DNA from: Microcaldota archaeon
GTDB taxonomy: Archaea; Micrarchaeota; Micrarchaeia; Norongarragalinales; UBA8480
Length of the DNA: 8,903 nt
Assembly (NCBI GenBank): GCA_023247085.1
Contig: JAHFHC010000006.1
Span: 37,683 to 46,585 of the forward strand
Direction of reading: 5' to 3'
Shown: positions 5,024-8,903 of the stretch, piece after piece
How positions within the stretch are numbered: the first letter of the stretch is position 1
How the letters are laid out: each line of letters starts with the position of its first letter
Notes under the pieces: generated by a model
Database searches by the model: none
Told to the model about the DNA's origin: nothing
Seen by the model: only the letters and a program-made list of their open reading frames with translations
Made by a program: the position numbers and the translations under genes

Positions 5024-5308
5024 ATGTGGCTTTTGAGCTAGCTGGGGAGCTAGGGGTTCCCTGGAAGCTGCAATCCCCTTAAGCTGAGCGAAGAGAGCTG
5101 CTCACGGCTTTTGAATAGCTATAACTAGGTTCAGCAGAAACTGTAGACGCTTTGCCTCACGTTACGTGGGTCAATGTGAACCGAGCCAGGTCCGGAAGGA
5201 AGCAACTCTAAACATTGAAAAACGTGCTCGTGAGTTACAAAGCCGAGGCGAAAGTTGAATGCCTATAGTTATCCAACTGACAAGACAACTCCGCTCAAGA
5301 GCCACTCT
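5024..5308 (+). ncRNA. ffs: Signal recognition particle RNA (7S RNA)
   Basis: This is the RNA scaffold of the signal recognition particle, which targets nascent membrane and secreted proteins to the translocon. The ends pair as helix 1 (5026-5038 with 5293-5305, 13 bp including one wobble). The Alu domain has helix 3 (AGCT 5048-5051 with AGCT 5066-5069, flanked by GGGG 5044-5047 and CCCC 5075-5078), the conserved GCAAT turn (5070-5074) and helix 4 (GAGC 5086-5089 with GCTC 5100-5103). Helix 5 includes ATAACTA (5121-5127) with TAGTTAT (5266-5272), GCCT with AGGC near 5154/5246, and CACG with CGTG. Helix 8, the SRP54-binding site, is closed by TCAATGT/ACATTGA (5171-5177/5212-5218) and carries the invariant core CCAGGTCCGGAAGGAAGCA with its GGAA tetraloop at 5194-5197. 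The usual archaeal helix 6 is not evident (see findings). Ends are set by helix 1 and are approximate. Confidence 0.93.
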
Positions 5309-8346: not shown

Positions 8347-8360
8347 CGCGGGGAGTGGGA

Positions 8361-8426
8361 TTTTCGTGCCGTTTTTCTTTTGGCCACGCCTGGCCTTTTC
8401 TTTTTCTAAAAGAAAAGGCATGGCTT
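8361..8426 (-). other. tRNA intron 3, in the T-loop (position 59/60), 66 nt
   Basis: The T-stem GTGGG/CCCAC acts as the outer helix. The central 4-bp helix is TTCG (8432-8429) with CGAA (8366-8363). The two 3-nt bulges are AAA (8428-8426) and AAT (8362-8360), each cut between its second and third base, which leaves the exact 7-nt loop TTCGAAT. The inner intron helix begins GCC/GGC after one A-A mismatch. Inside the intron is a strong hairpin, CCTTTTCTTTT with AAAAGAAAAGG, 11 bp with a TCT loop. This is the best-formed bulge-helix-bulge of the three. Confidence 0.83.
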
Positions 8427-8460
8427 TTCGAACCCACGCGAGATTTACACCTCAATAGCT

Positions 8461-8501
8461 GACCATTCCTGATTTCCTTTATTGGTTAAAAGGAAATTTG
8501 T
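8461..8501 (-). other. tRNA intron 2, at the canonical anticodon-loop site (37/38), 41 nt
   Basis: The exon ends CTGCTA (A37 at 8502) and resumes with A38 at 8460, followed by the 3' anticodon stem GCTAT. The outer helix is AGC/GCT. The central helix is weak: CTG pairs with TGG through one C-G and two G-T pairs, plus a C-A mismatch. The bulges are TA|A and TC|A. The intron core is a perfect 9-bp hairpin, ATTTCCTTT with AAAGGAAAT. The site is canonical but the motif is relaxed. Confidence 0.7.
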
Positions 8502-8509
8502 TAGCAGGC

Positions 8510-8579
8510 TTGCGTACCCAAAAAATTTCTTTTTTTTGAAACCGTAAACGGCCTTTTTCTTTGAAGGAAAAAGGGGGTT
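8510..8579 (-). other. tRNA intron 1, in the 5' strand of the anticodon stem (29/30 or 28/29), 70 nt
   Basis: The exon ends GCGGTA (8585-8580) and resumes GCCTGCTAA (from 8509). An A on both sides makes the cut ambiguous by one base, without changing the mature RNA. The central helix is GCG/CGC (8585-8583 with 8514-8512) plus a G-A mismatch. The bulges are TA|A and AA|G, and the inner helix is ACCC/GGGT (8578-8575 with 8519-8516). The intron contains a CCTTTTTC/GAAAAAGG hairpin and an A6/T6 hairpin. No outer helix was found, so this is a relaxed motif. Confidence 0.65.
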
Positions 8580-8636
8580 TACCGCAATAGCCACTATGCG
8601 ACCCCCGCATTTGTAAATATTTTAAGGAGAAAAGAA

Positions 8637-8645
8637 GTTAAATAG
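8637..8645 (-). promoter_or_regulatory. TATA-like box of the tRNA-Ser gene
   Basis: The minus strand reads CTATTTAAC, centred about 33 nt before the first tRNA base. A transcript start 5-6 nt upstream of the acceptor stem would fit. It lies in the 64-nt gap after the icd stop codon, so the tRNA is probably transcribed on its own. Confidence 0.45.
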
Positions 8646-8672
8646 GTTTTTAGTAGAGTTGCTTTACTTGTT

Positions 8673-8903
8673 CTAGCTCTTTTCAATACGGGTAACTATT
8701 TCATTTGCAAACTCTGAACACTTGACAAGCGTTGCGCCTGGAATTTGGCGGTGGAAGTCATACGTGACTTTTTTGCTTTCAATTGTTTTTGCCATTGCGG
8801 TTTCAATTAGTTTACCAACTTCATTCCAACCCATGTATTCGAACATCATCGCCCGCTTAAGATAACGCTGCCCGGATTAACTTTATCTTGTCCAGCGTAT
8901 TTC
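8673..8903 (-). CDS. icd: NADP-dependent isocitrate dehydrogenase, C-terminal fragment, with an apparent frameshift
   Basis: This enzyme oxidises isocitrate to 2-oxoglutarate with reduction of NADP+. From the right edge the minus strand encodes KYAGQDKVNPGSVILSG, the conserved cofactor-binding segment, and then in a different frame MMFEYMGWNEVGKLIE...KKVTYDFHR...GATLVKCSEFANEIVTRIEKS and a TAG at 8673-8675. The KY pair, V of DKVN, and the Y and R of TYDFHR correspond to E. coli residues K344, Y345, V351, Y391 and R395, which bind the NADP 2'-phosphate, so NADP specificity is likely. The switch occurs at GGGCG (8855-8851), where one G appears missing: the upstream frame reads into TGA, while the family expects S-G-A-M-M there. 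Either the gene is broken or the base was lost in sequencing. Most of the protein (about 340 residues) lies beyond the window. Confidence 0.9.

Follow-up and report, generated by a model that had tools for sequence, protein, structure and literature searches.

A three-intron tRNA-Ser(GCT) gene in a Micrarchaeota genome and a dispersed family of short structured introns

Introduction

In the archaeal BHB splice motif, two 3-nt bulges lie around a 4-bp central helix, and the cuts are made within the bulges. Thermoproteales such as Pyrobaculum and Thermofilum have up to three BHB introns per gene, comparable to the three probable BHB introns described here, at both canonical and non-canonical positions and with relaxed motifs, and their splicing endonuclease offers a further likeness in its specificity-broadening loop (PMC4033280, PMC8450103, PMC3218864). 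They nevertheless belong to a different phylum and use a heterotetrameric endonuclease, whereas the enzyme here is of the epsilon2 type, and the likeness concerns gene structure, motifs and enzyme. Within the same phylum, ARMAN-1 and ARMAN-2 share the epsilon2 endonuclease type and the presence of multiple and non-canonical introns, with multiple-intron tRNA genes listed for both of these Micrarchaeota (PMC4033280); many such genes are also found in Asgard genomes (PMC11291895). The tRNA-Ile(UAU) gene of the red alga Cyanidioschyzon merolae is comparable in having three introns, in the D, anticodon and T arms, albeit as a eukaryotic nuclear gene (PMC9602550). Similar introns in diverse tRNAs of one Thermoproteales genome have been read as the result of spread (2010 work, cited in PMC4033280); as far as that study can be followed through the citing paper, the introns considered below resemble them in this respect, and differ in coming from Micrarchaeota, where they occur in several families and orders. 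They frequently occupy the T loop, a 16S rRNA gene holds one copy, and some copies are antisense.

Published work already covers tRNAs with several introns in Micrarchaeota (ARMAN), as well as intron transposition on a large scale in Thermoproteales. The literature searched, to which the primary ARMAN and transposition papers did not belong, yielded no description of the Micrarchaeota intron family reported here. A sequence-only reading of this DNA had taken triple-intron tRNAs to be known mainly from Thermoproteales, and the neighbouring genes to belong to an archaeal lineage other than Crenarchaeota. The second point proved correct, the genome being a Micrarchaeota MAG; of the first, the difference in lineage stands, and the novelty is smaller than suggested, given the ARMAN (PMC4033280) and Asgard (PMC11291895) examples.

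The window, meaning the whole stretch of DNA analysed, constitutes the terminal 8.9 kb of contig C24 in an 892 kb assembly (G000) of 36 contigs that is 92% complete. The named relatives are likewise Micrarchaeota MAGs, the closest being nzgw34 (contig JAHFHN010000007.1; G002 below), a member of the same genus with a 99% identical FtsZ.

Results and Discussion

Structure of the gene

The tRNA-Ser(GCT) gene occupies the minus strand from 8608 to 8347, and is 262 nt long before splicing. Its four exons are separated by introns of 70, 41 and 66 nt, removal of which (177 nt in total) would leave a product of 85 nt. Read along the minus strand from 8608 to 8347, it is composed as follows:

8580-8608, minus strand: exon 1, GCGGGGGTCGCATAGTGGCTATTGCGGTA, with the acceptor 5' strand GCGGGGG, the D arm, G26 and positions 27-29 (from sequence)
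8510-8579, minus strand: intron 1, 70 nt, at position 29/30 (or 28/29)
8502-8509, minus strand: exon 2, GCCTGCTA, positions 30-37 with the anticodon GCT (from sequence)
8461-8501, minus strand: intron 2, 41 nt, at the canonical position 37/38
8427-8460, minus strand: exon 3, AGCTATTGAGGTGTAAATCTCGCGTGGGTTCGAA, with A38, the anticodon-stem 3' strand and the variable stem (from sequence)
8361-8426, minus strand: intron 3, 66 nt, in the T loop at 59/60
8347-8360, minus strand: exon 4, TCCCACTCCCCGCG, with T60, the T stem 3' strand, the acceptor 3' strand TCCCCGC and G73 (from sequence)

The variable stem in exon 3 is of 5 bp with a GUAA loop, and is followed by the T stem 5' strand and the T loop up to position 59; the discriminator G73 lies at 8347. 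Owing to a shared A, intron 1 can be placed at either 28/29 or 29/30 with an identical product. The coordinates proposed in the sequence-only reading, which left the strand unstated, are exact, and the paired stems, loop motifs and G73 that it described are all present in the spliced sequence.

ARAGORN calls the spliced 85-nt sequence as tRNA-Ser(gct) [1,85], whilst making no tRNA call on the unspliced 262-nt gene or on the plain window, where Rfam RF00005 also fails to report the gene. The spliced form has the 7-bp acceptor stem, 5-bp anticodon and T stems and long variable arm of a tRNA-Ser of type II, the type that had been claimed. A grammar-based parser, given tRNA-Ser rules alone, recovered the three-intron solution unaided. 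It found no parse in 3,000 versions of the gene in which the interior was dinucleotide-shuffled and 18 nt at the start and 8 nt at the end were held fixed; compared with shuffled sequences, the fold of the unspliced RNA is better by 4.8 SD. Together with the orthologue junctions discussed below, these results confirm the three-intron structure of the tRNA-Ser(GCT) gene, with 177 nt of intron and 85 nt of exon, and support the earlier interpretation of the locus.

Several other readings were rejected. One on the plus strand is ruled out by the position of the gene on the minus strand. If intron 2 is given a different 3' splice site, based on CCTG/CAGG pairing, the anticodon loop is lost and 39-43 no longer pair with 27-31; placing this intron at 38/39 leaves no central helix. 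Group I and II introns are marked by a catalytic core or by an encoded maturase or homing endonuclease; Rfam reports no intron of this kind anywhere in the window, and lengths of 41-70 nt are too small.

Orthologues and exon boundaries

Orthologues of the gene, several of which lie close to ftsZ in named records, vary in their complement of introns. Three (L053, L061 and L064) are intronless, lie near ftsZ and are called as tRNA-Ser(gct), and contain the same segment as exon 1 of the window. Others have introns at 29/30 and 37/38 only (L041/L133 and L042/L134; 18-21 nt), at 59/60 only (L048 and L050) or at 37/38 only (L059). Such intronless and partly introned genes allow the exon boundaries to be read off directly. 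The site of intron 1 is occupied by introns of 18 and 21 nt in L133 and L134, with a neighbouring site used in L130, whilst site 37/38 of intron 2 also has introns in L121, L131, L133, L134 and L139. For a number of class members, the strict variable-stem rules caused the parser to fail or to return spurious parses, and intron positions are given here for individual genes only.

Three introns are not confined to the window. The G002 orthologue (L135) has all three; its exons, including exon 1, are identical at 85 of 85 positions, and its first two introns differ by indels. About four intron events separate the two copies, none of them in intron 3, a divergence too low to tell exon from intron constraint. 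In the same comparison, the 60 nt upstream differ at one base, and similarity stops at the tRNA 3' end (window position 8347). The gene in G015 (L130) has three introns, the first at or beside the site used in the window, and that in G057 (L105) has them in the D loop and at 37/38 and 59/60; once spliced, both are called as tRNA-Ser(gct) by ARAGORN.

Copy number and requirement for the gene

Neither a DNA search with the spliced sequence nor a serine D-arm pattern revealed a second tRNA-Ser(GCT) in the assembly (892 kb, 92% complete). Apart from 18 nt shared with the T arm of another tRNA, pieces of the spliced sequence match at this locus only, and the D-arm pattern likewise has matches solely at this locus. 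The other serine tRNAs among the loci read manually have the anticodons GGA and TGA, which cannot read AGY. As AGC and AGT account for 89 of the 243 serine codons (37%) in the main ORFs of the window, loss of tRNA-Ser(GCT) should not be tolerated. The sequence-only reading had likewise expected this AGC/AGT decoder to be essential, and had proposed a search for another copy.

Splice motifs and processing enzymes

The three splice sites differ in quality. That of intron 3 is a near-canonical BHB in the minimum-energy fold, with an outer helix GTGGG/CCCAC, a central helix TTCG/CGAA and the 3' bulge AAT. Intron 1 has a relaxed BHB, in which the central helix GCG/CGC with a G.A mismatch supplies three of four pairs, and the fold containing it lies 3.3 kcal/mol above the minimum-energy fold; the motif of intron 2 is distorted, with a weak central helix. 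The orthologous introns in L133 and L106 form better central helices than introns 1 and 2 of the window.

A splicing endonuclease gene is present in the genome (G000:C26; L068, 1426-2594) as two frame pieces separated by a short run of Ns, which leaves the reading frame uncertain in the present assembly. Against the epsilon2-type EndA of ARMAN-2 (4fz2/9w2k), one half covers residues 12-180 (E 8.5e-43) and the other residues 198-387 (E 3.7e-82). By reading of the alignment, Y160, K161, Y236, H251, R275, K282 and W384 are kept; in ARMAN-2 EndA, Y236, H251 and K282 are catalytic and Y160 and K161 belong to the ARMAN-specific loop, the roles of R275 and W384 being taken from the same source (PMC12397907). 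Epsilon2 endonucleases cut relaxed BHBs at non-canonical positions (PMC4033280). The genome also encodes an RtcB ligase (E 2e-172).

The transcript would most likely be cut at six sites by the epsilon2-type endonuclease, with the exons joined by RtcB. Intron 3, given its near-canonical motif, could leave at any stage. Intron 2 has an outer helix that pairs 27-31 with 39-43, and as intron 1 splits 27-31, this helix should form only after removal of intron 1; intron 1 would thus be expected to leave before intron 2.

A dispersed intron family in the genome

Intron 3 contains a two-hairpin element with many relatives in the same genome:

8374-8416, minus strand: two-hairpin element copy within intron 3, an exact pattern match (G000:C24:46056-46098)

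The core pattern used for the family was a TTTTCTTT / AAAGAAAA hairpin followed by AAAGAAA, with two gaps, and the control was the reversed pattern. There are 35 exact matches in 0.89 Mb, as against three for the control. Hairpin 1 is 97.6% paired and has a covariation score of 0.308, compared with 0.115 in shuffled data (0 of 500 as high) and at most 0.124 when the pairing is slid. Intron 3 aligns to the 37/38 intron of tRNA-Arg(TCT) over about 52 nt, with none of 200 shuffles as good, and is on this evidence a member of a dispersed family of structured elements of about 60 nt. Intron 1 does not match the exact pattern and aligns significantly to some family members, its best alignment being unequalled in 200 shuffles for two of them, such that it probably belongs to the same family; intron 2 neither matches the pattern nor clearly resembles the family in alignments.

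Reading of the flanks places roughly 30 of the 35 copies within tRNA genes, mostly in the sense orientation, one in the 16S rRNA gene (L178; G000:C28:1570-1611) and about three elsewhere, with antisense copies in the minority. A copy at L173, just beyond the splicing endonuclease gene, is flanked by direct repeats of about 25 nt, and G009 apparently has several copies in rRNA (L230 and L232).

Most of the tRNA genes examined in this genome are disrupted, largely by this one family, and among them the interrupted serine gene is unexceptional. In a partial inventory of 24 tRNA matches, to which Rfam adds one more on C36, seven are clearly intronless (Asn, two Val, Ile, Thr, Asp and His). ARAGORN accepted eight of nine tRNA genes spliced by hand, with L087 probably assigned the wrong anticodon. 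The tRNA-Gln(TTG) gene (L160) is an apparent second three-intron gene, with one extra A at the proposed junction. At L007 (G000:C27, about 25,300-25,550), tRNA-Tyr has ahead of it a second copy of its upstream region and 5' half, with hairpin sequence after that copy, an arrangement that is either a partial tandem duplication or split-tRNA-like; the 5' end of tRNA-Thr(TGT) (L081) is similarly duplicated.

Distribution in relatives and T-loop copies

Of 60 relatives, 28 contain matches to the family pattern, the control giving almost none, and the family, as judged from sequence, recurs across the class in several families and orders. In G057, which lies outside the order of the window, a T-loop intron shares about 60 nt with a G003 intron at about 90% identity, and all ten copies sampled are T-loop introns, each in a different tRNA gene (one record ending at the contig end). 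Near-identical copies occur in different tRNAs of one genome.

Members of the family in T loops mostly end in YGAAAA. The final YGAA of T-loop introns, ahead of the 3-nt bulge, pairs with TTCR of the T loop, and the intron base opposite R57 covaries with it: G57 is found with C in 16 of 18 cases and A57 with T in 11 of 14 (Fisher p 4e-6 for the C/T table, in which introns were parsed with at least three central pairs, somewhat favouring pairing, and related copies were treated as independent). Nearly every tRNA has TTCR in its T loop. Hence nearly any tRNA can form a splice motif with an intron ending in YGAAAA, and through this pairing one and the same intron would be removable from almost all of them.

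Origin of the introns and alternative explanations

We consider it very likely that this is the sole functional tRNA-Ser(GCT) gene of the genome, with three BHB-type introns spliced by the epsilon2 endonuclease and RtcB, of which intron 3, and probably intron 1, would have been gained through the spread of the hairpin-forming family of about 60 nt through tRNA and rRNA genes. The gene might alternatively be a decaying, non-functional copy, its working counterpart lying in the unassembled 8% of the genome; the assembly is 92% complete in 36 contigs, and two of the three splice sites have relaxed motifs. Nevertheless, two congeneric genomes agree at all 85 exon nucleotides, with pairing in every stem of the mature tRNA, neither the DNA nor the D-arm search found a second gene, orthologues in many genera look clearly functional, and similarly disrupted tRNA genes abound in this genome, making decay very improbable.

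The shared A/T-rich hairpins could instead be convergent low-complexity spacers that serve BHB folding, rather than members of one spreading family. The shared core, TTTTCTTT / AAAGAAAA, is of low complexity and intron 2 has no clear match, yet we think this unlikely in view of the 35 matches against three for the reversed pattern, the extended similarity of the G057 and G003 introns, the near-identical copies in different tRNAs of one genome, and the copies in 16S rRNA and, in a few cases, outside RNA genes. Slightly less probable again is that the T-loop intron arrived with an integrase-type element at the tRNA 3' end, carried in the attachment site, as proposed for Caldiarchaeum tRNA-Thr (PMC3293823). 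In L122 and L127, a direct repeat of the tRNA 3' end lies downstream of the gene, which suggests integration events at the tRNA end there, and the 3' flank changes abruptly at this point between the window and G002; however, no tRNA-end repeat follows the window gene, and related copies occur at a distance from attachment sites, in 16S rRNA and in the D and anticodon loops of tRNAs. A downstream repeat of the tRNA-Ser(GCT) 3' end is perhaps also present in L125 and L131.

We suggest more generally, and with somewhat less than even confidence, that the tRNA and rRNA genes of Micrarchaeota are being colonised by a short structured RNA, itself non-coding, that behaves as an intron able to be spliced. 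It would settle in the T loop through pairing of its 3' end with TTCR, be tolerated by a permissive epsilon2 enzyme, move between genes and lineages, possibly by reverse splicing of the excised intron RNA, and have repeatedly yielded two- and three-intron tRNAs. The minority of antisense copies argues that not all insertions would have resulted from reverse splicing of RNA.

Other features of the window

A full-length match to archaeal SRP RNA at 5030-5301 on the plus strand, scoring 74.5 bits against a gathering score of 96.5, appears from its sequence to be a divergent SRP RNA gene. On the minus strand, 8641-8903, which lies upstream of the tRNA, contains the 3' end of an apparent isocitrate/isopropylmalate dehydrogenase gene with a frame break, where one G seems to be missing near GTTATCTTAAGCGGGCG; at this contig end, the break is either an assembly error or a frameshift. 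A CRISPR-DR40 match at 2446-2475 lies within a long ORF and scores below gathering, and was dismissed as chance.

Significance

The standard tRNA model places only 11 tRNAs above its cut-off in this genome; default tools miss such genes, and the tRNA counts of these MAGs are likely to be too low. Three-intron tRNA genes are here recorded for a DPANN lineage, each junction being backed by comparison with orthologues. The greater interest lies in the intron family, of which the gene carries at least one copy and probably a second. To our knowledge, large-scale spread of tRNA introns has been reported for one order, the Thermoproteales; the many copies in many genomes, some of them nearly identical, make the gain of tRNA introns by archaea testable outside that order. 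With at least one intron from a family spread through many tRNA genes, the tRNA-Ser(GCT) gene is well suited to the study of tRNA intron multiplication.
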